Source of the DNA: Gemmatimonadales bacterium
Lineage (GTDB): Bacteria > Gemmatimonadota > Gemmatimonadetes > Gemmatimonadales > GWC2-71-9
Direction: 5' to 3'
Assembly: GCA_019637315.1 (NCBI GenBank)
Contig: JAHBVU010000009.1
Location: forward strand, 1 to 64,000
Length of the DNA: 64,000 bases
Below the pieces are notes generated by a model. The model ran no database searches. It was not told the origin of the DNA and saw only the letters and a program-made list of their open reading frames with translations. Of this stretch, positions 26,692-40,437 are shown in pieces. The stretch's first letter is position 1. Each line of letters opens with the position of its first letter. The translations under genes were made by a program, and so were the position numbers.

Positions 26692-26949
26692 TTACTGCGA
26701 CAACCGCTTCGGTTCGCTCGAGGTGGGCGCCTGGGACTGCGTGGCCGCATCGATCTGACGCGCGTTGGACGATGGCGGTTCGTTCAGGCCGCTGGTGACG
26801 TTGTCGCCAATTTCCGAGAAGCTCTTCTTGAACTCCCGAATACCCTTGCCGAGTGACTGGCCGATTTCCGGAAGGCGCTTGGCGCCAAACACCAGCAGTA
26901 CGATGACGGCGAGTACCAGAATCTCGCCAAACCCCAGATTCCCGATCAT
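26692..26949 (-). CDS. tatA: twin-arginine translocase subunit TatA
   Basis: An 85-residue TatA/TatE-type protein. A short N-terminal transmembrane helix (about 5-21) begins [21 protein letters not shown]. It is followed by the conserved hinge [20 protein letters not shown] and an amphipathic helix, then a polar tail. TatA multimers form the protein-conducting pathway for folded, cofactor-bearing Tat substrates. A clear AGGAG lies eight bases before the ATG. The TatC partner of this window is the fusion gene about 4 kb upstream on the same strand. TatB is not seen; in many bacteria a single TatA serves both roles. Confidence 0.92.
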
Positions 26950-26962
26950 ACCACGGCTCCTG

Positions 26963-27241
26963 CTAAAAGAGCGATCTCGCGATCAAGTACGCGATCAGGA
27001 CCCCAAACAAGCTCAGCACGGATACCTCGACGCCAAGCGGTCCCAGAGTAAAGTCTATCACCATGAGATCGACTTTGACAGGCCCAAATTCGCCCCGCCA
27101 GGCGCTGGTAAAGACATCCTTAGCGGGGCTGTCGGGCAGGAACTTCGACAGAAAGCCCTGCAGAAATCCACCCAGCAGGAACCCCGTCGCAAGCACGGCG
27201 GCGTAGAATCTGGGCCGGCGGGGGCCACGTGCACCTGCCAT
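26963..27241 (-). CDS. small membrane protein, DUF4321-like
   Basis: A 92-residue protein with two predicted transmembrane helices, one near 12-30 ([19 protein letters not shown]) and one at the C-terminus ([20 protein letters not shown]). Between them lies a short hydrophilic loop. The arrangement fits the DUF4321 family as I recall it, but I could not test that. A strong GGAGGT ribosome-binding site precedes the ATG, which comes just after the polyprenyl synthase stop. Its place between a polyprenyl synthase and tatA suggests a membrane-related housekeeping role; no function is known. Confidence 0.7.
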
Positions 27242-27243
27242 GA

Positions 27244-28236
27244 CTACCTCCGACGCTCGGTCACAAAGGCCACAGCGGCTTCCAGCCGGTCGCGATCAGC
27301 ACCCGACGGCAGTGAATCGAGCTCCCGGAGCGCGTCAGCCGCAAGCGCCTGAGCCCGGGCCCGGGCGTAGTCGATGCCCCCGGCTGCCGCGATATGCGCC
27401 ACCACGACCGAGACCTGCTCCCCGGTAGGCTCGGGCGTGGCCATCAGCGCGTTGACGTCGCGGCGCTGCTCGGGGGAAAGGCGTGGCAGGGCATAGATCA
27501 GTGGCAAGGTGACTTTGTGCTCCCGAAGGTCGTGCCCTGTCGGCTTGCCGGTGACCGACTCGACCTCCGTGACGTCGATCACGTCGTCGATGATCTGGAA
27601 GGCCATGCCGAGAGCGTTACCGAACCGCGCCATGGCGGATCGCACCTCCGAGGAGGCCCGAAGCGCCCCGCACTCGCACGCGCCCGAAATCAGCGAGGCC
27701 GTCTTGGCGCGAATCAGGAGGTCGTAATCTTCCTCGCTGAAGGTCAGCGGATCGTGCGCCAGCAGCTGGCGCATCTCGCCAATGGTCATCTCGTTGGTGA
27801 CCCGACTCATCACCTCGAGCGGCTTGAGATCGCCCAGGTTGACCAATTCGATCATGGCACGGGAGTAGAGGTAATCTCCCATGATGACGGAGACCTGATG
27901 ACTGAAGATCGAGTTGATCGTCGGCATCCCGCGCCGGAGCACCGAGTGATCGACCGAGTCGTCGTGAATCAGGGTGGCGAGGTGGGTCAGCTCGAGCACT
28001 GCGGCCAGCCGAACCGCCCGTTCATCGGGCGCACCGGAGGCACGATTGACGAGCAGCAGCAAGGTCGGCCGAAACATCTTGCCCTGCATCCGCAGCAAGT
28101 GCGAATTGACATCGGCAATCAGGGCGAAATCCGCGGCAATCGTCTGGCGAATCTGCTCTCGCACCAGCGCGAGCGGTTCTTCGATCCCGGCCTGGAGGTC
28201 GGCCAGCGAAACGGGGGTCGTATCGTAAGTCGTCAT
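27244..28236 (-). CDS. all-trans polyprenyl diphosphate synthase
   Basis: A 330-residue isoprenyl synthase of the IspB/HepT type. It condenses isopentenyl diphosphate onto an allylic primer to make the long chain of a respiratory quinone. The first aspartate-rich motif is DDSVD at 92-96 and the second DDVID near 216-220. The GKRxRP motif is present as GKMFRPTL. Chain length cannot be read safely from the sequence. No partner subunit or menaquinone gene is adjacent. Start overlaps the upstream TPR stop (ATGA) and the stop is two bases from the DUF4321-like start. Confidence 0.9.
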   Translation of the reverse strand: MTTYDTTPVSLADLQAGIEEPLALVREQIRQTIAADFALIADVNSHLLRMQGKMFRPTLLLLVNRASGAPDERAVRLAAVLELTHLATLIHDDSVDHSVLRRGMPTINSIFSHQVSVIMGDYLYSRAMIELVNLGDLKPLEVMSRVTNEMTIGEMRQLLAHDPLTFSEEDYDLLIRAKTASLISGACECGALRASSEVRSAMARFGNALGMAFQIIDDVIDVTEVESVTGKPTGHDLREHKVTLPLIYALPRLSPEQRRDVNALMATPEPTGEQVSVVVAHIAAAGGIDYARARAQALAADALRELDSLPSGADRDRLEAAVAFVTERRR

Positions 28237-30416
28237 GAGGCGCCCGAGGTCAGGCGGTGGACCCGATCGCCGACATCCAGGAAGCGGATATCGACGGCCA
28301 GGGCCCGTTCATAGTATCGGAGCGCTTCTTCGTAGCGCCGCTGCGCTTCGAGCGCACGGGCAAGCCAGTAGATCGAGCCGATCTTCTCTTCGTCCCCGCC
28401 CGGCAGGCTTTCGATGGCTCTGCGCAGCACGGCTTCAGCGATGGCAAAGCGCGATTTGTCGTAGAAGGCAATTCCCAACTGTTCCGAGGTCTTGAGGCGG
28501 CCGTCGGGCGAACGCAGGGCCTTCTGAAACTGTGCAATCGCTTCGTCGAGCAGACCCATTTCCTTGAAGGCAATGCCGAGGTCGTAGTGGGCCTGGAAAT
28601 CCTCGGCGTCGATGTTTTCCTCGATGCCGCGCTTGAACTGGGTCAGTGCCTCGTGAAAAGCCTCGTCCTCATTCTCGATCGGAGCGCCCTGGTCGACCCG
28701 CATCCGGGTATCCCGGACCGCTGGCTCATCGAGGATCAGGCTGCCCAGGTCGACGAACGAGGGCGCTGGCGGGGGCGGAGGAGGCGGCGGCGCCAGCGCG
28801 GCCTCGAGACGGATCAGTGCGCTCCGAGCGGCCCGATTGTCGGGGTCGTGTTCGAGCACTCGACGATAGACGGTCATCGCGTGCTCGACCCCCCCGCTTC
28901 GGGCCAAGGCATCGGCCAGGCCGAGGTAGGAGTCGAGCATGGCACCCCGGTCGCCGGCCCGGTAGGCAATCTCGACCCGCTTCTGGTAGCGGTAAATCGC
29001 ATCCGGCTCGTAGCGAATCAGCTCATCGGCAAGCTGCAGCGCCTCGGCCAGCCGGCCCGAACCCTCGTATTGACGCAGGGCCTCCTCCAGCCCGGCAATT
29101 CCCGCCACACGGTCGCCGGCGGACAGCAGCACACGCGCCCGGTCCTCGGCGTAGCGCGCCAGGTCCGCAGACTCCGGTTCGGCCTCTGCCGCAGCCAGGC
29201 CGCCATCGATCAGCTCAGCCTCACCGCCACCCGGCGCCTGCGCACCTGGGGTACTTACGCTATCATCTTCGGACAGGAAGACCAGATCCGCAGGCGTCTC
29301 TGGAGAGCCATCGGCATCGACCGCCACCTCGCCCTCGAGCACGAAACCCTGCGCCTCGTCGAGTGGCAGCTCGATATCGGGGGTCGTTTCCAAGTCGATG
29401 GGATCGAGGACCTCGAGCCCGGCAGTCGGCGTCAGCGCAATTTCGTCGAGGGACTCGATCTCGGAGTCTCCGCCGACGGCGGCCAGCGCCTCGTCGAGTT
29501 CGACACTCGGATACGAATCGATGTCGAGCGGGTCGGGGTCCTCCTCGCCGAGCTCGAGGGTCTCAGCGATGTCGAAGGCGGACTCGGTCACGAACTCGAC
29601 GGTTGCTCCGATCTCGGTGTCGACCGGATCGAGCCCGGTATACTCGAAACCCTCCACCCGCCCCGTATCCTGCCGCCACGGCTCCTCAGGCTCCGAATCG
29701 TTGTGGATGACTTCGAGTCCCTCGACGGGATTGACGTAAGCTGACTCGCGCCCCTGACCACCGTCCAAGTCGAGAAAGACAAGCCCGGACGCAGCGTCGA
29801 TCCGGCGGGCCGCGTCGCTGTCGACCGAAACCTCGCCTCCGGCCTCTTCCTCCTCGGGCGCATCCTGCTGTTCCAACTCCTGGACCATCTGATCGAACGG
29901 CTCGCGCATCGACGGATCGAATGATCCGCCGCGCAGCAGTTCCACCAGCATCGAACGGATTTCCGGGTTCTCGGCACACTGCGCGATGAAGATCCTGACG
30001 GCCGCCACCGCTTCTCCCGGGTGGTGCAGCGCGGTCATCCGTTCGATGTACTCCGTCAGATTCTTCCGCGCATCGCCGACGAAGTTCTTGCGGGCGTTGA
30101 GCTGCGCCAGGCGAAGATAGGTGGCGGTTCGGCCCGGATTGACGCGGAGAATCTTGCTGCAGAGAGCAATGGCGTTGTTGAAGAAGCCCTGCTCGGTGTA
30201 AAGATCGGCGGCCTGTTCGTAGGCGCGGATCGCGGCACTGGTGTCATTGACGCGCATCTCGAGATCGCCAATGCGATTGTACAACGAGGGGTCCAGGACG
30301 CCCTCGCCGGACTCCTCAAACTCGCGCAGCGCCTTCTTGTAAACGTCAATGGCTTGGCGCCACTGGCCGTTCTGCTCGTACTTCCGCGCGGATTCTTTGA
30401 GCTTGTCGAGATTCAT
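28233..30416 (-). CDS. large TPR protein with acidic low-complexity centre
   Basis: A 727-residue protein. TPR units cover about 1-165 (KYEQNGQWRQAIDVYKKAL, AIRAYEQAADLYTEQGFFNNAIA). An acidic, aspartate/glutamate-rich region of low complexity spans about 180-420. A second TPR block spans about 425-727 (AGDRVAGIAGLEEALRQYEGSG, AMTVYRRVLEHDPDNRAA, AIAQFQKALRSPDG and ALRYYERALAVD) and includes a proline run near residue 545. No signal peptide or membrane helix is visible. It is the first gene before the polyprenyl synthase and has its own promoter. It mirrors the design of the 616-residue TPR protein at 22723-24573. Function unknown; a scaffold for protein complexes is the safest reading. Confidence 0.8.
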   Translation of the reverse strand: MNLDKLKESARKYEQNGQWRQAIDVYKKALREFEESGEGVLDPSLYNRIGDLEMRVNDTSAAIRAYEQAADLYTEQGFFNNAIALCSKILRVNPGRTATYLRLAQLNARKNFVGDARKNLTEYIERMTALHHPGEAVAAVRIFIAQCAENPEIRSMLVELLRGGSFDPSMREPFDQMVQELEQQDAPEEEEAGGEVSVDSDAARRIDAASGLVFLDLDGGQGRESAYVNPVEGLEVIHNDSEPEEPWRQDTGRVEGFEYTGLDPVDTEIGATVEFVTESAFDIAETLELGEEDPDPLDIDSYPSVELDEALAAVGGDSEIESLDEIALTPTAGLEVLDPIDLETTPDIELPLDEAQGFVLEGEVAVDADGSPETPADLVFLSEDDSVSTPGAQAPGGGEAELIDGGLAAAEAEPESADLARYAEDRARVLLSAGDRVAGIAGLEEALRQYEGSGRLAEALQLADELIRYEPDAIYRYQKRVEIAYRAGDRGAMLDSYLGLADALARSGGVEHAMTVYRRVLEHDPDNRAARSALIRLEAALAPPPPPPPPAPSFVDLGSLILDEPAVRDTRMRVDQGAPIENEDEAFHEALTQFKRGIEENIDAEDFQAHYDLGIAFKEMGLLDEAIAQFQKALRSPDGRLKTSEQLGIAFYDKSRFAIAEAVLRRAIESLPGGDEEKIGSIYWLARALEAQRRYEEALRYYERALAVDIRFLDVGDRVHRLTSGAS

Positions 30417-30466
30417 CCGGCTCGCGGGTGAGGGGCACCAAGCGAAGCAACACCTTGCCAGCGCTT

Positions 30467-30496
30467 AAGATAGGCCACCGGGAAGGACAAGGGCAA
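30467..30496 (-). promoter_or_regulatory. candidate promoter for the TPR-polyprenyl synthase-tatA block
   Basis: TTGCCC (30496-30491) and TATCTT (30472-30467) on the minus strand are separated by 18 bp. They lie in the 184-base gap between the tatC-lptD stop and the TPR start. Transcription would begin near 30460, about 44 bases before the ATG. The rest of this gap holds nothing else I can recognise. Confidence 0.4.
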
Positions 30497-30600
30497 GCCG
30501 CCGCCGGCAGGGCCCCTCCGGAACGACCGCCAATCACCATCACGATCGGCATCGGACCGGCCGGACTTGACCACCAGCCAGCCTCCGCCCTGCCCCTCGC

Positions 30601-33600
30601 TCAGGGCTGAATCGAGCTTTGGCGGTAGTCGAACTTGAGGTCCGGCAGGTCGATCAGGGTAATCAGGAACGAAAAGGAGAAGTTGCCGTTGGGTGACCGG
30701 AGGAACGAGAAGGTGGCCCGCCAATCGTGGAGATCGCGGGTGAGATTGACCTGCTGGGCCTCGAAGGTCCGATTGGTAACGTCGTACTGGGTGTTCCAGC
30801 TGACCTGCCAGAACTGGGTCGGCGCAAAACTCGTGTTGAGCGACAGGTTGCTCCGGCTCGGCGGCTGCGCCACCCCTGGAATGGGCCTGGTTCGGCTCAA
30901 AGTGTAGTTGACGCTGGAGTTGAAGCCGCGCTGACCCCGAACGAAGTTCTGGTTGCTGGTGAAGGCGGTGCCACGCCGCATGTCATCCATCATCCCGAAC
31001 TGCTGCTGACCAAGCTGGCCGGGTGCCGTTGGCGCTCCCGGCACGGTCGGTTGCCCCTGCCGAGTCGGCGGATCGTCGTCGTCCGAGACCAGGCCCAGCA
31101 AGCGACCGATCGACCGGAAGGTGCCTTCGGTCAGCGAAAAGCTGGCCGTCACACCCGACAGATAGGGACTGAAACGCGCGGTGCTGCTGTCGAAGGCCCC
31201 GACCCGCCCCGTCGCAGGATCGAACGCGCCGGCAAAGAGATCATGCGTCATCGACAGATTGAGGCCCGGCACCAGGTCGCTCAGAATCGAATTGCTCAGC
31301 GTGGGCGACGACCACCCGGTCCGGCCCGGCAGCTTGGCTTTCTCGAGGTCGTAGGCAAGGCCGCTGGTACTGATGCTCAGCAAGCGTATCTTGCGGACCC
31401 GCGCATCGGTCGTGTCGCCTGCGGGCCGTTTGGTCTTGCCCTCGAAGTTCTGATTCAGCGTCAGACTGATCGACTGGGTCGGAATACTGCGCAGCACCAG
31501 CGGCTGCCCGACCGGCGTAATGGCCCGCGCAAACTCGATCGGAATCTCGGCGGCCGGGCTGTAGCTGTAGCTGATCGACGGCGACACCGTGTGGCGGATC
31601 CGATCCAGCGGTCCGACTCCCGGAAAGAAGCCGTAAAACGTCGGCGCGGCGGACAACCCGAACTGAAAGCGCTTGCCTTGCCGGATGTACTCTCCGCCGG
31701 TGCGTGAGTTACGCACCGCAAACGGCGCCTGCGCCGTCGTGTTGGTGATGCCCACCGAGGGCGTGATCTTCCAGGAGGTCCGGAAGAGAATGGGCAGGTT
31801 GATGCCGGTATTCCAGTCGAACTCGCTGCCATAGCCGCCCGAGCGGACGCGCCGGATCGTGACTGAATCCGTCGGATCTTCGGTGCTTTCATTCGGCAGG
31901 GTGACGAACTCCTCGCGAAGGCCGGTCGAATCGGCGTCGACCAGGCTGACGCTGTTGGTCCACTGAAAGCCGCTGATCCGAAGCGGCGTGTTCATGCTGA
32001 AACGGCTGAGCCGGCTCCCGCCCGTGACTGCCAGCGTATCGACGATGCCGCCCGGACCGCGAGGCACCAGGACCGAGGGCAACGGCTGCTTGAAGGCAAG
32101 ATCGTTGGTGAAGTTGATGTCGGGCGACCAGGTCACCGCCGAGCCGAAGTCGATCGGCTTGGGTGAAAGCGTCAGCGATGGAGCCGTCATTCGACCGCTG
32201 CCATCCGTGACATTCTGGGTGCGGGTGCCACCGACCGCCATGTTGCCCCAGCTGAACTGGCGATTCAGGTTGGCCGAGCTGCGAATCTGCTGCGTCGTCA
32301 GCCGCGGATCGATCGAGTTCCGCCGGATGATCGACGAATTGGTCGAGTAGTCGAGACTGACGTTGAGCTTGGTCGTCACGTTGAAGGTCTGGTTATGGTT
32401 CCAGACCACTCGCGTATTGGTCGAGCCGCCAATTTCCTGCGCGCGTGAAAAGCTCACGGCGCCCCGCATGAACTGATCGATCCAGCGATACTGCCCCTCC
32501 ATCCCGAACTCGATGTAGCGATTCGAGTACCAGTCGAAGCGGGCCAGGACGTCGACCTTTTCGCTTGCTGCCCAGTAGTAGCCGAGATTCTTGACCGTGC
32601 GGTTGTAGTTGCGACTCGGACGCACGATGTCGTTGAAGCCGAGTTCGGGAATCAGGATCCCGGAGCGGCGGCCGCGCTTGGTGTCCTGAAAGAGAAAAGG
32701 CACCCAGGCAATCGGCACGTCCCGGATGTACAGCACCGCCGGGCGCGCCACCATGGTCCCACCGCCGACCCAGCGAAGCTCCTTGGATCGGAAATGGTAG
32801 TGGGAATCGGGCAGATCGCAGCTGGTAATTTCCCGCGCGCTGGCAAAGACCCGCTTGGCAGTCGAGTCCATGGCGATATTGCCGCTGACAATCCAGTTGG
32901 CGCCCTGTTGCGGAAAACTGGTGCGCCCGTCCTGCACCAGTCCGCGCTCGACACAGGTGTTGTAGAGTACCGTCCGGCCTACCACCACGGTGCCCTGCTG
33001 AAAGAGACGCGGTTCGCCCTGCGCTTCGAACCGGCAGTCTCCCTCGCGATAGAAGATCCGGTCGGCCTCGAGCACGGCATCGGTCCGCTCGGTCATCGCG
33101 TTGCCGCCCAGTTGGACGGCCTTGTCGCGCGGGCTGACCTGCGCCGTGTCCGCCCGATACCGGGTGATCTCGTACCCCTCCAGGTCCTGGAGATCGAGCA
33201 GCAGCGAATCAGCAGCCGGAAACGAGCGCTTTGGCGCGGTCGGCAGTCCCAGCCGCCTGGCGCTGGCCGAATCAGCAGCCTGCGGCCGGGTGGTATCCTG
33301 GGCCTGGCGCGGCGGGGGCGGCGGCGGTTGCTGCGCCGCGAGCGGAGCTGGCAGGAGCAGCCAGAGGATCAGCAGGGCCGACGCCGCGGCCGCGGCTGCC
33401 CGGGTCCGCCGTTTGTGAACGATCCAGGCGCCGAAGTAGCCGACTTCGTACAGCACGATCAGCGGCGCGGTCATCAGCACCATCGAGAAGACGTCACCAC
33501 CTGGCGACAGGATGGCCCCGCCGGCAAAGGACAGCACGATGGCAAAGCGCCGAAACCGACCCAGCATCTGCGGCGTGACCACCCCCATGACCGCCAGCAT

Positions 33601-34134
33601 GATGATCAGCAGCGGCAACTCAGCCGAGAGTCCCATCGCCAGCGTGACCTGCATCACAAAGGCGAAGTAGGATCGCCAGGTGATCAGCATTTCGAAGGTG
33701 CCGGGGCCCATGCCCAGCAGCACGCGCAGGGCCTGGGGAACGATATAGATGAAGCTCAGGGTAGCGCCGGTGATGAACAGCAGCACGCCGATGAAGAGGG
33801 CGGGAACGATGGCCTTCTTCTCACGAGCGTAGAGCGCGGGCGACAGGAAGGCCCAGATCTGCCAGATGATGACCGGCGATGCCAGCACCAGCCCGACGAT
33901 GAAGCCGAGCTTGAGCAGGATCATGAACTGCTCGGTGGGGCTCTGAATGACGAGATGACGGCCTTCGAGCAGCGGCAGAATCGGCTGCTGCAGGATATCG
34001 ACGATCTGGAAGTGGTCGACCAGCCATATGCCTATACCGATCGCGACGACCAGGGCGACAACCGCCTTGAGCAATCGCGATCGGAGTTCCTCGAGATGGT
34101 CGAGGAACGGCATTTCTCCACTGGACCGCGCCAT
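30601..34134 (-). CDS. fusion of Tat translocase TatC with LPS-assembly protein LptD
   Basis: One uninterrupted 1177-residue frame. Residues 1 to about 240 are a complete TatC: HLEELRSRLL at 13-22, six transmembrane helices, the conserved TEQF loop and the AILSPGGDVFSM segment. TatC is the Tat signal-peptide receptor of the inner membrane. Residues 241-267 look like a signal peptide: basic KRRTR, a hydrophobic core (ASALLILWLLLP), then APLAA before QQ. Proline-rich residues follow, then an OstA/LptD N-terminal domain (about 310-480; KAVQLGGNAMTERTD, WIVSGNIAMDS). An LptD barrel follows (RRSGILIPELGFND, NLGYYWAASEKVD), running to the C-terminus in alternating beta pattern. No ATG, GTG or TTG exists between TatC helix 6 and the signal-like segment, so a separate lptD start is not obvious. 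It lies 15 bases after cpoB at the end of the Tol-Pal operon. Cleavage by signal peptidase I after about residue 267 would release a normal LptD; that is inference. Confidence 0.9.
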   Translation of the reverse strand: MARSSGEMPFLDHLEELRSRLLKAVVALVVAIGIGIWLVDHFQIVDILQQPILPLLEGRHLVIQSPTEQFMILLKLGFIVGLVLASPVIIWQIWAFLSPALYAREKKAIVPALFIGVLLFITGATLSFIYIVPQALRVLLGMGPGTFEMLITWRSYFAFVMQVTLAMGLSAELPLLIIMLAVMGVVTPQMLGRFRRFAIVLSFAGGAILSPGGDVFSMVLMTAPLIVLYEVGYFGAWIVHKRRTRAAAAAASALLILWLLLPAPLAAQQPPPPPPRQAQDTTRPQAADSASARRLGLPTAPKRSFPAADSLLLDLQDLEGYEITRYRADTAQVSPRDKAVQLGGNAMTERTDAVLEADRIFYREGDCRFEAQGEPRLFQQGTVVVGRTVLYNTCVERGLVQDGRTSFPQQGANWIVSGNIAMDSTAKRVFASAREITSCDLPDSHYHFRSKELRWVGGGTMVARPAVLYIRDVPIAWVPFLFQDTKRGRRSGILIPELGFNDIVRPSRNYNRTVKNLGYYWAASEKVDVLARFDWYSNRYIEFGMEGQYRWIDQFMRGAVSFSRAQEIGGSTNTRVVWNHNQTFNVTTKLNVSLDYSTNSSIIRRNSIDPRLTTQQIRSSANLNRQFSWGNMAVGGTRTQNVTDGSGRMTAPSLTLSPKPIDFGSAVTWSPDINFTNDLAFKQPLPSVLVPRGPGGIVDTLAVTGGSRLSRFSMNTPLRISGFQWTNSVSLVDADSTGLREEFVTLPNESTEDPTDSVTIRRVRSGGYGSEFDWNTGINLPILFRTSWKITPSVGITNTTAQAPFAVRNSRTGGEYIRQGKRFQFGLSAAPTFYGFFPGVGPLDRIRHTVSPSISYSYSPAAEIPIEFARAITPVGQPLVLRSIPTQSISLTLNQNFEGKTKRPAGDTTDARVRKIRLLSISTSGLAYDLEKAKLPGRTGWSSPTLSNSILSDLVPGLNLSMTHDLFAGAFDPATGRVGAFDSSTARFSPYLSGVTASFSLTEGTFRSIGRLLGLVSDDDDPPTRQGQPTVPGAPTAPGQLGQQQFGMMDDMRRGTAFTSNQNFVRGQRGFNSSVNYTLSRTRPIPGVAQPPSRSNLSLNTSFAPTQFWQVSWNTQYDVTNRTFEAQQVNLTRDLHDWRATFSFLRSPNGNFSFSFLITLIDLPDLKFDYRQSSIQP

Positions 34135-34149
34135 CCAACCAACCCGGAC

Positions 34150-34926
34150 CTAGGGTTTGAGGCTCTCGAGTCGCGCCCTGGCCAGGTCGGCATCTTCCGA
34201 ACGAGGATACTCGGTCACCAGCCGCTGGTACGCCGCCCGAGCCTGGGCCGGCGATTTCTTAACTGTCTCGAGCACGTAGCCAATCTTGTACAGCGCGGTC
34301 GGTGCGCGCCGAGACTGCGGGAACTTCGCATGAAGCTCCTGAAACCGCGCGATGGCCGTGTCAGGCAACTCGACCTCGAACGACTCCGCCACCCAATACA
34401 TAGCATCCGGCACATTGGGATGGGTCGGGTACTGCTGCAGGAACTCGAGGAAGGCCCGGCGCGCAACGCCGGGGCTTCCCCGCTGATACTGCTGAAGCGC
34501 GCCGACATACATCTGTTCGGCCGATGCCGCCGGCGGCGGAGCCGCCGGATCGGTCGGACGGGCAGAATCCGCCGGCGGCATCGTCTGCAATTCAGCACGC
34601 GCATCCAGCTGGGCCTTGAGCACCGACAACTGTCGCTGACTCTGGCCCGACAGCTCCTGAATCTGAAGCAACTGACGTTGAACGTCGGTCAGGTCACTGC
34701 CTACCCTGGCTTCCAGCACCCGGAGGGCCTGACGCGACGCGCTGAGCGAGTCGATGGCCTGTTGCTGGAGACGAATGATGCGCGCCAGTTCTGCAGCCCG
34801 CACCGAATCCTGGCGCGCCGTTTCTGACCGGAGCACCAGCACCTGCGTCTCGACCTGGCGCACTGAGCCTTTGGTGGCGCACCCCGCAGTCAGGCCGGCC
34901 GCGAGGGCCACCAGCAACAGTCTCAT
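34150..34926 (-). CDS. cpoB: Tol-Pal accessory protein CpoB (YbgF), lipoprotein form
   Basis: About 258 residues. The N-terminus has a lipoprotein signal with lipobox LTAGC near residue 15, so this version is likely lipid-anchored; E. coli CpoB is soluble in the periplasm. A coiled-coil region (about 25-100) is rich in Leu/Gln/Arg heptads, then a proline/alanine linker. Three C-terminal TPR units follow (YVGALQQYQRGSPGVARRAFLEF style). CpoB coordinates Tol energy state with peptidoglycan synthesis at division. The ATG at 34926 and a GTG one codon upstream both overlap the pal stop. Position after pal is the classical one. Confidence 0.88.
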   Translation of the reverse strand: MRLLLVALAAGLTAGCATKGSVRQVETQVLVLRSETARQDSVRAAELARIIRLQQQAIDSLSASRQALRVLEARVGSDLTDVQRQLLQIQELSGQSQRQLSVLKAQLDARAELQTMPPADSARPTDPAAPPPAASAEQMYVGALQQYQRGSPGVARRAFLEFLQQYPTHPNVPDAMYWVAESFEVELPDTAIARFQELHAKFPQSRRAPTALYKIGYVLETVKKSPAQARAAYQRLVTEYPRSEDADLARARLESLKP

Positions 34927-35477
34927 CACCGCGGTCTCACCAGCCGGGCGCCACCGCTGATGATTTCGAACTCATCGCGACGGTTCTGGGCCCAGGCGGC
35001 CTCGTTCGAGGCCGGGTTTGCCGGCCGCTCCTCGCCGTAGGAGATGATCTCGATCCGGCTGCCATCGATGCCGCGCGTCTCGAGATAGCGCTTGGCCGCC
35101 GTGGCGCGGCGAGTGCCCAGCACCATGTTGTACTCGTCAGAACCGCGCTCGTCGGCGTGTCCGGCAATCCGGATCCGCAGCGACGGATTGGCCTGAAGAA
35201 TCGCCGCCTTCTGATCGAGCACCGGCCGATCCTGAGCACGAATCTCGAACTGATCGAGATCGAAGTAGATCGCCTGCTGGAGCAGCCGCGTCACCTCCGC
35301 GTGCTCGGCTGCAGCGGCCGCATCACCGTTGGTAGCCGGTGGTGGCGGTGGTGGCGCTGGAGCCGGGGCCGGGCTCGCGGGCGGTGGCGTCGGTGTCGGA
35401 ATGACCTCGGGCTCCTTCTTCTTGCAGGAGGCCAGGACAATGACACCGAGCGCCAGAGCGAAAGTCCGAATTCGCAT
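34926..35477 (-). CDS. pal: peptidoglycan-associated lipoprotein Pal
   Basis: A 183-residue outer-membrane lipoprotein. The signal sequence ends in a VLASC lipobox at about 14-18, followed by charged residues (KKKEPE). A long proline/alanine linker (about 25-50) follows, then an OmpA-type peptidoglycan-binding domain. Its key stretch is YFDLDQFEIRAQD, then IAGHADERGSDEYNMVLG and RRATAAKRYL, which carry the diaminopimelate-binding Asp and Arg. Pal tethers the outer membrane to peptidoglycan and is moved by TolB and the TolQRA motor. It is preceded by tolB with a 45-base gap. Confidence 0.95.
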   Translation of the reverse strand: MRIRTFALALGVIVLASCKKKEPEVIPTPTPPPASPAPAPAPPPPPPATNGDAAAAAEHAEVTRLLQQAIYFDLDQFEIRAQDRPVLDQKAAILQANPSLRIRIAGHADERGSDEYNMVLGTRRATAAKRYLETRGIDGSRIEIISYGEERPANPASNEAAWAQNRRDEFEIISGGARLVRPR

Positions 35478-35522
35478 GAGGTGTACCCTCGGAGTAAATG
35501 GTGGTGGTGATGGTGAAACTGG

Positions 35523-36806
35523 TCAGCGCCCGCGACCAAGCGAGTGCGACCACGACGGCAACCGGGCAACGCCTGGGGTCATAATCTGCCGGACCCGCGC
35601 CGTTTCCAGATCGAGGACATGAAGCTGCCCCCGCCCGGTCCGGTTGGAGATAAAGACGACATGACGGCCATCAGGCGCGAAACTCGGATCTTCGTTCCGA
35701 CCAGACGACGTCTGCTGCTTCAACTGACGACTCCCCAGATGATACGTCATGAGCTGGGGAGCTCCCTGAAACTCACGATGGAACACGATCGTCGTCCCAT
35801 CGGCAGACCAGTCCGGCGCAAAACTTCCGCCAGAACCGTAGTCGAACGGAACCAGCAGCTCCTGGTTCGTACCATCCGACGCCATGCCGTATATCTGAGG
35901 CGACCCGGCTCGATTGGAAACGAACGCGACCCGCCGACCGTCGGGAGAATAGACAGGCGAGAGGTTTTCTGCAAACCGAACCGCCGTAATTCGTTCCGCG
36001 CAGCAGAGATCCGCCACGTTGACCGTGTAGAGATTCGCAGCCTGCTCGGTCATCCTCGAGAAGACCAGGCGGCGACCATCCGCCGAGAAGGACGGCGTGA
36101 TGTTCTGGCCGGAGGTCGTCGTCGGCACCACCACCCGGGTACCAGTCGAGGTCGACTGCAGGATCAGCGTTCCCGGGCCCTCGCCGCCAAGCTGGGTATA
36201 CGCAAACCGACTCCCGTCCGGTGACCAGGCCGGCGAAATGGCGAGCACATTGGCCGGGGTCATCGGCGCGAGCCCGTAGCCATCACTATCGATTCGATAG
36301 ATCCGTCTGTCCGCGTTGTTGACGAACAGGATCCGCGTCGCGGCTATGCCGGTCTTGCCCGTGGTAACCTGGACGATGTCGTCGGAAACCCGGTGGACCG
36401 CCATGCGCGCTTCGCCGATACCCGATGCGTCGAGCGGCTGGGTCATTTCGTGCCGAACCGTCTCGGTCGAGAGGTCATGGATCCGAACTGTAACATTTCC
36501 ACTCGAGCCTATGATCTCAACTGCGAGCCCTGCCTTCAACGACCGATACAACGGGTAGTTGATCGTCGCGAGCACCTGTTCCGTCACCGGCCCCACCGCC
36601 GGCAATGTGATCACATCGAACAGGTCACTGTAGTCGAGATCGCGAGCAATGATTGCCCTGATCGAGTCCAGCGCAGGCACCGTAGGGAGGACGACGAGAC
36701 CCGCCCGCGTCCCTGGATCGTACACCCCGCGTACCCGCACGGTGTCCTGAGCCCGGAGCGAGTTCACTCCAAGCGTGGCCATCATCAGTAGCAACCAACC
36801 CCGCAT
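35523..36806 (-). CDS. tolB: Tol-Pal system beta-propeller protein TolB
   Basis: A 427-residue periplasmic protein. The signal peptide is about residues 1-20 (MRGWLLLMMATLGVNSLRAQ). An N-terminal alpha/beta domain (about 25-150) precedes a C-terminal six-bladed propeller made of repeated WSPDGSRFAYT, FSADGRRLVFSR, YSPDGRRVAFVSNR, WSADGTTIVFHR and FAPDGRHVVFISNR blades. TolB shuttles between Pal and TolA. The ATG at 36806 overlaps the stop of the TonB/TolA gene as TGATG. An open reading frame extends 18 codons upstream but would encode a non-signal N-terminus inside the previous gene. Confidence 0.95.
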   Translation of the reverse strand: MRGWLLLMMATLGVNSLRAQDTVRVRGVYDPGTRAGLVVLPTVPALDSIRAIIARDLDYSDLFDVITLPAVGPVTEQVLATINYPLYRSLKAGLAVEIIGSSGNVTVRIHDLSTETVRHEMTQPLDASGIGEARMAVHRVSDDIVQVTTGKTGIAATRILFVNNADRRIYRIDSDGYGLAPMTPANVLAISPAWSPDGSRFAYTQLGGEGPGTLILQSTSTGTRVVVPTTTSGQNITPSFSADGRRLVFSRMTEQAANLYTVNVADLCCAERITAVRFAENLSPVYSPDGRRVAFVSNRAGSPQIYGMASDGTNQELLVPFDYGSGGSFAPDWSADGTTIVFHREFQGAPQLMTYHLGSRQLKQQTSSGRNEDPSFAPDGRHVVFISNRTGRGQLHVLDLETARVRQIMTPGVARLPSWSHSLGRGR

Positions 36807-37498
36807 CACCGCCTCCTCGGCGTGAAGGAAAACGCCACCTGCAGGATGTCCGACCCCCACCCGGCGGGCAGCGGACCAAACGCCCGGTCCTCGGCCGCCT
36901 GTTCGACGGCCCCCTGCGCTTCCAGATCAAAGGTGTAGTTGCGTGACGACCGAATCACCCGGATATCCCGGACCGAGCCGTCCCGCATTACGGTAAAGCT
37001 GATTTCCGCCTCGAGCGCCCCCGCCCCGACCGGTCGAGCCCAACGGCGCAACACCTCGTTGACGATCCGGTTCAGATAGTCCGGATACGGAAATGTGGCG
37101 CCCTGCACCCTGACGTTGTCCACGTCGGTGCCAGTGCTTGGCGTGGCCCCCGGAACCGGTTGATTCTGGGTTCGCGTCGGAGGGGCGGGCGTGGCCTTCG
37201 GATCGACGGTCGGCGGCGGTGTTCGCTGCGGCGTGCGCTGTGGCACCGGCGACGGCGCCGGCGACACCTTGGGCGGCGCCGGAGGTGGCGGCGGCACCGA
37301 CGGCGGTACCACTCGAGCCGTGGAGGTCGTCGGTGCCGGCGCGGCAACGAGATTCACCGAATAGATCATCGGCGACGGTCCACTGGTCCCGCGCGACGTA
37401 AGCAGCAGCACCGCGACCAGCAACGCATGCACGGTAAGCGTCCCCCCGACCCCGGCCAGGACGCCTTCCCGAGATGCGGTCGCGCGCCGAAAGATCAT
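36806..37498 (-). CDS. TolA/TonB-like energy transducer
   Basis: A 230-residue protein. The N-terminal cytoplasmic stub is followed by one transmembrane helix (about 15-35, GTLTVHALLVAVLLLTS). A long proline-rich periplasmic spacer (about 55-130) precedes a TonB/TolA-type C-terminal domain (about 140-230; YLNRIVNEVLRRWARP, SFTVMRDGSVRDIRVIRSS). Between tolR and tolB this is the TolA position, but the domain is closer to the TonB C-terminal class than to E. coli TolA. It passes the proton-motive force from TolQR to TolB/Pal. The ATG at 37498 overlaps the tolR stop (ATGA); a longer upstream frame is only the shadow of tolR. Confidence 0.88.
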   Translation of the reverse strand: MIFRRATASREGVLAGVGGTLTVHALLVAVLLLTSRGTSGPSPMIYSVNLVAAPAPTTSTARVVPPSVPPPPPAPPKVSPAPSPVPQRTPQRTPPPTVDPKATPAPPTRTQNQPVPGATPSTGTDVDNVRVQGATFPYPDYLNRIVNEVLRRWARPVGAGALEAEISFTVMRDGSVRDIRVIRSSRNYTFDLEAQGAVEQAAEDRAFGPLPAGWGSDILQVAFSFTPRRR

Positions 37499-37926
37499 CG
37501 TCGGATATCTTCCGCTTCGGTCACCAGCCCCGCCGAGGTAATCCCCGCCTCGTGCAGCGCGGCAATCACCCGGACCACGTTGCCATACGGCGTTGCGCGA
37601 TCGCCCCGGACAAAGACCCCGGTTGCATTGCGCTGATCCATCAGCCGCCGGACGGTGGCCTGCAGCTCGGCCGCCGACACCGGAATGTCGTCTACGAAAA
37701 CCTGCCCGGCGCGATCGACCGTGATGACGACGCCGTCTTTGGCCGCGAGCGGGGCCGTCGACGCCTGAGGCAACTGGACGTCGACCCCGCCCATCATGAT
37801 CGGCGCCGTAATGATGAAGATGATGAGCAGCACGAGCGCCACGTCGACCAGCGGCGTCATGTTGATCTCGGTATTGACCGCAAGGCGCTTGCGACCGAGG
37901 CTGGCTCCACTGATTCCACCCGCCAT
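37495..37926 (-). CDS. tolR: Tol-Pal proton-channel subunit TolR (ExbD family)
   Basis: A 143-residue protein with a single transmembrane helix (about 25-45). It begins INMTPLVDVALVLLIIFIIT, whose aspartate is the conserved protonatable residue of ExbD/TolR/MotB. The periplasmic domain follows (VDVQLPQASTAPL, VVITVDRAGQVFVDD). With TolQ it forms the proton channel that energises the TolA-like protein. It begins three bases after tolQ and overlaps the next gene by ATGA. Confidence 0.93.
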   Translation of the reverse strand: MAGGISGASLGRKRLAVNTEINMTPLVDVALVLLIIFIITAPIMMGGVDVQLPQASTAPLAAKDGVVITVDRAGQVFVDDIPVSAAELQATVRRLMDQRNATGVFVRGDRATPYGNVVRVIAALHEAGITSAGLVTEAEDIRR

Positions 37927-37929
37927 CGT

Positions 37930-38646
37930 CTACAACCACCCTTCCCGAGCCATCCAGCCGACCAGGCCGTTGGCAAAGCCCTCGAGCTCCGATTCGAGCT
38001 GCGCGATCTTGTTGGCAAAGAAGTTGTACGCCATCAACGCTGGAATCGCGGCGCCGATACCGGCCGCCGTGGCAATCAGGGCGTCGGCAATACCCGGAGC
38101 GACCGCCGCCATGTTGCCGCTTCCCTGCGAACCAAGCCCCACGAAGGTGTGCATCACGCCGAGCACCGTGCCGAGCAGGCCGAGCAAGGGACTCACCGTG
38201 CCAATCGTGGCCAGGAAGGAGACATTCCGGGTCGCCACGTCCCGCTCGACCCCGACCTCCTTGGCCAGCATCATCTTGAAAACGTCGAGCTGGGTCGGCG
38301 TCAGTCCCACCTTCTCGGCAGGTCCTTCTCGCGTAAACCCCGGCACCAGTTCACCATAGAAGTTCATGGCCTCGCGAAACAGGCGGCTGAAGGGCGAGGG
38401 CGGGAGCTTCATCGCGACTCGATACGCATCAGGCAGCTTCGGCGCCCCCTCGATGGCCGTGAAGAACCGGTCGGCCTGACGGCGGACCTTCCGGAACTGC
38501 CACCATTTGACCCCCATCACGAACCAGGAGTAGATCGAGAGGATCGCGATGACGACGAGCACAGCCACGGTAATGGGCGTCGCAATCGCAAGCAGCTCGC
38601 GCACGGAACCCGGAGCGACATCGGACCCTTGGACGACGAAAAGCAT
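37930..38646 (-). CDS. tolQ: Tol-Pal proton-channel subunit TolQ (ExbB family)
   Basis: A 238-residue MotA/TolQ/ExbB protein with three transmembrane helices: one near 20-45, then two after a cytoplasmic loop, in LATIGTVSPLLGLLGTVLGVMHTF and ADALIATAAGIGAAIPALMAYNFF. It pairs with TolR. The ATG at 38646 has a GGAGAG ribosome-binding site four bases upstream; the longer frame to 38682 would pass through that site. It is the first gene of the Tol-Pal operon and lies about 115 bases downstream of the terminator that ends the LysM gene. I see no convincing promoter hexamers in that gap. Confidence 0.93.
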   Translation of the reverse strand: MLFVVQGSDVAPGSVRELLAIATPITVAVLVVIAILSIYSWFVMGVKWWQFRKVRRQADRFFTAIEGAPKLPDAYRVAMKLPPSPFSRLFREAMNFYGELVPGFTREGPAEKVGLTPTQLDVFKMMLAKEVGVERDVATRNVSFLATIGTVSPLLGLLGTVLGVMHTFVGLGSQGSGNMAAVAPGIADALIATAAGIGAAIPALMAYNFFANKIAQLESELEGFANGLVGWMAREGWL

Positions 38647-38760
38647 CCACTCTCCTCGAAATGAAGGCCAAAGCCTCGGCACCCTGCGGTAAACCGAAGC
38701 CGTCCCGAGCCACAGGCGAGGGGAGACGCCCGAAGCCCATCGACGTTGACAGACAACAAG

Positions 38761-40000: not shown

Positions 40001-40437
40001 CAAGCGCCTCCGGGAAATCATCGAACGATTCCTTCTTGCCCGCCGCCGGAGCCGCAGCGCTCGCGCGGGCCGGGGAAAAGGACTCGCCGTCAGAACCACC
40101 ACGACCGGACAACAGGATCAGTTCGCGAGCGGTGATCTCGGTGGTGTACCGAGTCTGCCCCTCCTTGTCCTGCCAGCTCCGATACTGATGGACCCTTCGA
40201 CGTAGACCTTGTCGCCCTTACAATACCGCTCGGCGATGTCAGCAAGGTTCGAGCCCTTGTTGTTCCAGAGCACCACCCGATGCCACCTGTCTTTCCTTAC
40301 CCGCCGCTCTGCCCCTTCCAGCGGCGGCCCGTGGCCACCGACAACGTGGCAACCCGCCCCCCGTTTGCGGTGCTCCGGACCTCAGGATCGGAACCAAGGT
40401 TCCCAATCAGGGTGACTTTGTTGAGACTGCGGCTCAT
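39972..40437 (-). pseudogene. ssb: single-stranded DNA-binding protein, broken by two frameshifts
   Basis: The ATG at 40437, with AGGAGAG upstream, opens MSRSLNKVTLIGNLGSDPEV, a perfect SSB start, and runs to GRRWKGQSGG before a TAA at 40299-40297. The protein resumes in the second frame (WHRVVLWNNKGSNLADIAERY...KVYVEGSI). Near 40187 it shifts again to the third frame (YRSWQDKEGQTRYTTEITAREL...). That frame ends with the acidic tip AEEDDLPF and TAA at 39974-39972. Each break is cured by one extra base: near 40298-40306 (making GEVRKDRWH) and between 40187 and 40186 (making SIEYRSW). The repaired protein would be about 155 residues, normal for SSB. Because SSB is essential and everything else is intact, sequencing or assembly error is more likely than true loss. 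Confidence 0.88.

Follow-up and report, generated by a model that had tools for sequence, protein, structure and literature searches.

An in-frame tatC::lptD fusion with an internal signal peptide in the Gemmatimonadales, a predicted polyprotein

In a 64,000-nucleotide stretch of Gemmatimonadales DNA (the window, meaning here the whole stretch that was analysed), the coding sequence of TatC – the Tat receptor of the inner membrane – runs without a stop into that of the outer-membrane barrel protein LptD. This raises the questions of whether the join is genuine and, if so, whether its product spans the periplasm as one chain or is separated into two proteins. The open reading frame starts with ATG and translates into 1177 aa with zero internal stops, and the original prediction of a genuine in-frame fusion holds, with both domains complete and the frame clean at exactly 30601..34134 on the reverse strand. 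The parts of the frame are these:

30601..34134 (-): tatC::lptD, one 1177-codon frame, stop at 30601-30603 (ORF, translation, Pfam TatC and LptD_2)
33415..34134 (-): TatC moiety, residues 1-240, six helices (Pfam, NCBIfam and PDB matches)
33334..33414 (-): predicted internal signal peptide, residues 241-267, with n-region KRRTR, core at about 246-262 and cleavage-like site LAA267^Q268
30604..33333 (-): mature LptD moiety, residues 268-1177, with Pro-rich linker, beta-jellyroll and barrel (Pfam, profile, model)

The front part matches the Pfam TatC family (PF00902) at residues 12-224, covering profile positions 1-208 of 208 (E 4e-59), scores 189 bits against a cut-off of 132.7 with the equivalog-level NCBIfam TatC model TIGR00945, and matches the PDB TatC entries 4b4a/4hts at 1e-43 or better. 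Its HLEELR motif and E105 are invariant in alignment A1. The back part matches PF19838 (LptD_2) from residue 462 (E 7.5e-38) and the LptD structures 7omm and 8h1r by profile, and scores far under the cut-offs of the NCBIfam LptD models; no Pfam domains besides these two were found in the 1177-aa frame. An AlphaFold model of the fused chain, of moderate confidence (mean pLDDT 73.5, pTM 0.48, from a 28-sequence alignment), contains the TatC helices, a helix reaching residue 259, and then jellyroll and barrel strands, with pLDDT <50 across residues 258-288. Foldseek searches with the model returned LptD chains (best 6e-25) and TatC chains (best 1.8e-12, TMt 0.79-0.83). The TatC helices are predicted and the fold is that of TatC, yet a seventh hydrophobic stretch, also of predicted topology, comes after them.

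The assembly contains one TatC, one LptD, one TatA, two LptF/LptG and two signal peptidase I genes. Both LptF_LptG genes lie on contig 16, so that the Lpt pathway is represented, and no second TatC or LptD copy was found elsewhere in this 95%-complete assembly, within which the fused frame is thus the sole source of both proteins. Its neighbours on the same strand include:

34150..34929 (-): TPR/YfiO-type periplasmic protein (CpoB/YbgF-like), the gene directly upstream of tatC::lptD (Pfam)
34926..38682 (-): tolQ-tolR-tolA-tolB-pal, upstream (MotA_ExbB, ExbD, TonB_2, PD40, OmpA)
26809..26937 (-): tatA, downstream, the sole TatA/B match in the assembly

TatC therefore has its TatA partner, in the one tatA at 26809-26937. 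From 26809 to 38682 (-), Tol-Pal, tatC::lptD, a 727-aa TPR protein, a polyprenyl synthetase and tatA form a single-strand row, which is a mixed envelope-biogenesis cluster.

The simplest doubt about such a frame is that faulty sequencing or assembly, or gene decay, has joined two separate genes. The doubt is prompted by ssb in the same window (40178-40425, reverse strand), which is the sole SSB match in the assembly and is broken into two frames, although 13 of the 15 relatives in which it was sought, all five congeners among them, have an intact single-frame ssb; the split ssb reflects either local sequence errors or a decayed copy. The same worry does not extend to tatC::lptD. TatC is present in 89 of the 102 genomes of the window's family (f1), and frame-length classes, tallied by hand from the genome list, give at least 1140 codons in 67 of these 89 TatC-bearing genomes and 1071 codons in one further genome, making 68/89, a recurrence far above what chance would give; the remainder comprise 14 with intermediate or short frames and 7 with a short TatC. 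Three of those 14 frames were read, and all three are truncated by a contig end. The 68 long-frame genomes fall under 31 genus codes; the named records are metagenome assemblies of Gemmatimonadetes/Gemmatimonadales that come from numerous unrelated projects, one record (CP070716) being a chromosome of 2.87 Mb in a single contig. Direct reading of 92 loci identified 60 as fused (57 in f1 and three in a neighbouring family, f2) and 32 as unfused. TatC frames elsewhere in the order and in the phylum sample are of ordinary length with few exceptions, among the families listed. Because 60 fused loci were read, we reject an artefactual or decayed origin, which is refuted for the family and retains only a vanishingly small probability for the window; the long frame shared by 68/89 genomes likewise bears out the earlier argument that a single indel is not the cause, and the frameshift concern stands for ssb only.

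The frame also behaves as coding sequence throughout. Third-position GC is 0.80-0.95 along its whole length, and dN/dS pooled over 14 near pairs, which are partly non-independent, is 0.14 in TatC, 0.34 in the junction, 0.39 in the first 40 codons past the cleavage-like site and 0.16 in LptD. These near pairs show purifying selection across the junction, and the values of 0.14-0.34 over TatC, junction and LptD are a second argument against artefact or decay.

What lies at the join is more than a loss of punctuation. The window junction reads VHKRRTR-AAAAAASALLILWLLLPAPLAA^QQPP, and the fused loci share its order of a short basic TatC tail, a hydrophobic stretch, a small residue and Gln. A simple signal-peptide rule is satisfied in frame at 56/60 fused loci, as compared with 1/60 and 0/60 in the other two frames and 0/3000 LptD stretches. 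A small residue followed by Gln is present in 60/60 fused loci, in a search that itself required Gln; in an alignment with no such requirement (A2), Gln268 is invariant in 28 aligned fused proteins. Position -1 is Ala in 53/60 loci and position -3 is Leu, Ala or Val in 54/60. That -3 is often Leu counts somewhat against cleavage, since signal peptidase I sites classically have Ala or Val there, although Leu is tolerated. In unfused relatives, pre-LptD begins at this same position, with its own start and the same kind of signal peptide. The junction thus resembles a signal peptidase I site of Ala-Gln type, and two complete proteins lie in one frame with a predicted signal peptide between them, which is the layout of a polyprotein. 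The in-frame join proposed in the original prediction is real, but it is not a bare one, the LptD signal peptide at residues 241-267 having been missed. A similar-looking site, LRA^Q, occurs in TolB of the window.

We regard it as likely, from the sequence pattern, that tatC::lptD encodes a polyprotein that signal peptidase I cleaves to give a seven-helix TatC and a normal mature LptD. In the proposed sequence of events, the ribosome would make TatC first, which would insert with its C-terminal tail in the cytoplasm, and that tail (VHKRRTR) would double as the n-region of the LptD signal peptide. The hydrophobic stretch would then form a seventh helix whose C-terminal end faces the periplasm, the remaining LptD would be passed through the Sec channel, and signal peptidase I – of which the genome has two supporting genes – would cut after Ala267 (LAA^Q). 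Ordinary mature LptD would be released to the Bam machinery, and the former signal peptide would stay on TatC as an additional helix at its C-terminus, which might be trimmed afterwards.

The fate first envisaged for the product, that its parts must separate or span the periplasm, can be narrowed to the former branch, with signal peptidase I as the agent to which the sequence points. Conservation of a continuous frame across a family, and a region past the seventh helix that is disordered and Pro-rich in the window, are what would be expected if the chain stayed uncut and TatC of the inner membrane were tethered through the periplasm to LptD in the outer membrane. However, the linker, measured from the cleavage-like site as far as the first conserved LptD motif, has a median of 47 in fused f1 proteins versus 49 in unfused f1/f3 relatives (p=0.89), so that no lengthening was found in this comparison and a permanent tether is unlikely. 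The signal-peptidase-like site is also retained with its invariant Gln, which together with the equal linker length favours cutting, and the fusion has apparently split repeatedly, as a working tether would be expected to resist. A periplasm-spanning chain is therefore unsupported as the probable end state, with a signal peptide at the join and a linker of ordinary length, and we give it very little credence.

A different route to two proteins is that LptD is made separately, or also separately, by internal initiation at the end of tatC, the fused product being minor and the frame mostly an open overlap. In-frame ATG/GTG/TTG codons do occur between the YE motif and the hydrophobic core in 50/60 fused loci, so some separate synthesis of LptD is possible in those genomes, and in two of the three f2 fusions a candidate start (ATG in L044, GTG in L087) stands just ahead of the signal peptide, possibly an intermediate stage. 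Against this, the start-like codons of the 50 loci mostly encode Val where the last TatC helix ends, and GTG is not enriched among Val codons at the junction (70/133) relative to elsewhere (2333/4478, p=0.93). Shine-Dalgarno-like motifs near the junction of the fused loci are rare and not conserved, dN/dS is below 1 across the junction, and ten of the 60 loci – the window and nine others – have no ATG, GTG or TTG between the YE motif and the core; in the window these are absent from codon 228 to the cleavage site. A selected internal start for LptD is not supported by these patterns and we consider internal initiation as the main source of LptD improbable, occasional use being possible, especially in L044 and L087.

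Translation of LptD as the continuation of TatC thus remains the preferred reading, and the arrangement in unfused relatives suggests how it could have arisen. In most unfused genomes the start of lptD overlaps the tatC stop by 4 bases (ATGA or GTGA) or lies near it, and in two f3 loci (L046, L057) lptD starts directly after TAG in the same frame as tatC (TAG-GTG), one stop codon short of fusion. The fusion may have originated from such a tatC-lptD pair, already overlapping or abutting, in which the stop and the separate lptD start disappeared; with both lost, LptD translation would obligatorily follow that of TatC, at 1:1. The genuine fused frame supports the earlier suggestion that one ribosome would make both proteins, at a fixed ratio.

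On a tree built from TatC and LptD with the junction omitted, the fused or separate label changes 8 times, compared with about 26 when labels are shuffled. The history that fits best has the fusion gained once at the base of f1, later split at least four times (in L040, a congener of the window; in L072; in L061 with L091; and in L089 with L090), and gained three separate times in f2 (L044, L087, L088), although the directions of gain and loss are provisional because this is a quick tree rooted by midpoint. Relatives with a stop codon and a separate lptD start, which had been named as evidence that would tell against a fusion, do therefore exist in some lineages, including the congener L040; most of f1 is nonetheless fused, and the L040 split looks secondary on the tree. 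Having seemingly split at least four times, the fusion does not appear indispensable. Three loci need separate comment. L088 was not counted as a full fusion, its LptD frame being short (630 aa) and perhaps broken. In L089 (genome G087) TatC reads into a final tail that looks unrelated, LptD is encoded in a different frame in which no start is evident, and this may be a frameshifted fusion instead of a true split. In L054 (G009), an f1 genome, TatC clusters with f2 on the tree and no lptD lies within the stretch read, which points to transfer or contamination.

A stronger form of the proposal is that the polyprotein is obligate, synthesis of an essential part of the outer-membrane LPS translocon being strictly tied to that of the Tat receptor, and TatC permanently carrying a seventh helix. 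We view this as a tentative possibility that is rather less probable than not; were it true, a seventh helix derived from the LptD signal peptide might alter how Tat works or link Tat assembly with the export of LptD. If the polyprotein reading is correct, the family as a whole would provide an example of a single chain containing both an inner-membrane protein and an outer-membrane barrel, in which the tail of one protein would serve as the signal-peptide n-region of another. Such a chain would lend itself naturally to asking whether signal peptidase is able to free an outer-membrane protein from a polytopic membrane protein, and to what extent cells tolerate the coupling of synthesis between two unrelated envelope pathways. 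The fusion is also a warning for annotation, since one long 'TatC' call conceals the genome's only LptD. No paper on a TatC-LptD fusion was found in a search that covered mainly non-subscription literature, and as far as we could find TatC and LptD are new as polyprotein partners.

To our knowledge, the nearest precedent for this layout is FbcH, the cytochrome b/c1 precursor of Bradyrhizobium japonicum, in which a polytopic inner-membrane protein is reportedly followed by the in-frame signal peptide of a second exported protein, and which is said to be cut by signal peptidase. The two parts of FbcH reportedly belong to one complex and remain at one membrane. The layout of tatC::lptD is the same, with cleavage predicted, whereas its partners are functionally unrelated and destined for different membranes, the second being an outer-membrane barrel. 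With canonical TatC (Escherichia coli, Aquifex aeolicus; 4hts, 4b4a, 9dzz) the TatC of the window has in common the whole profile, the invariant motifs and the fold, but its C-terminal tail leads on to a signal peptide and then an LptD of 910 residues. Similarly, the LptD moiety has the N-terminal jellyroll and C-terminal barrel of canonical LptD (E. coli 4q35, 8h1r; Neisseria gonorrhoeae 7omm), but in the window it has no initiator of its own, and the signal peptide that precedes it lies within the TatC chain. A Tat component is also made as a precursor in Providencia stuartii, where TatA has an eight-residue N-terminal extension removed by the rhomboid AarA (PMC3712462). Both would then be Tat components made as pre-proteins for proteolytic processing, which for tatC::lptD is a prediction; processing of tatC::lptD would differ from that of TatA in releasing a second protein, in place of the rhomboid trimming of an extension (PMC3712462).
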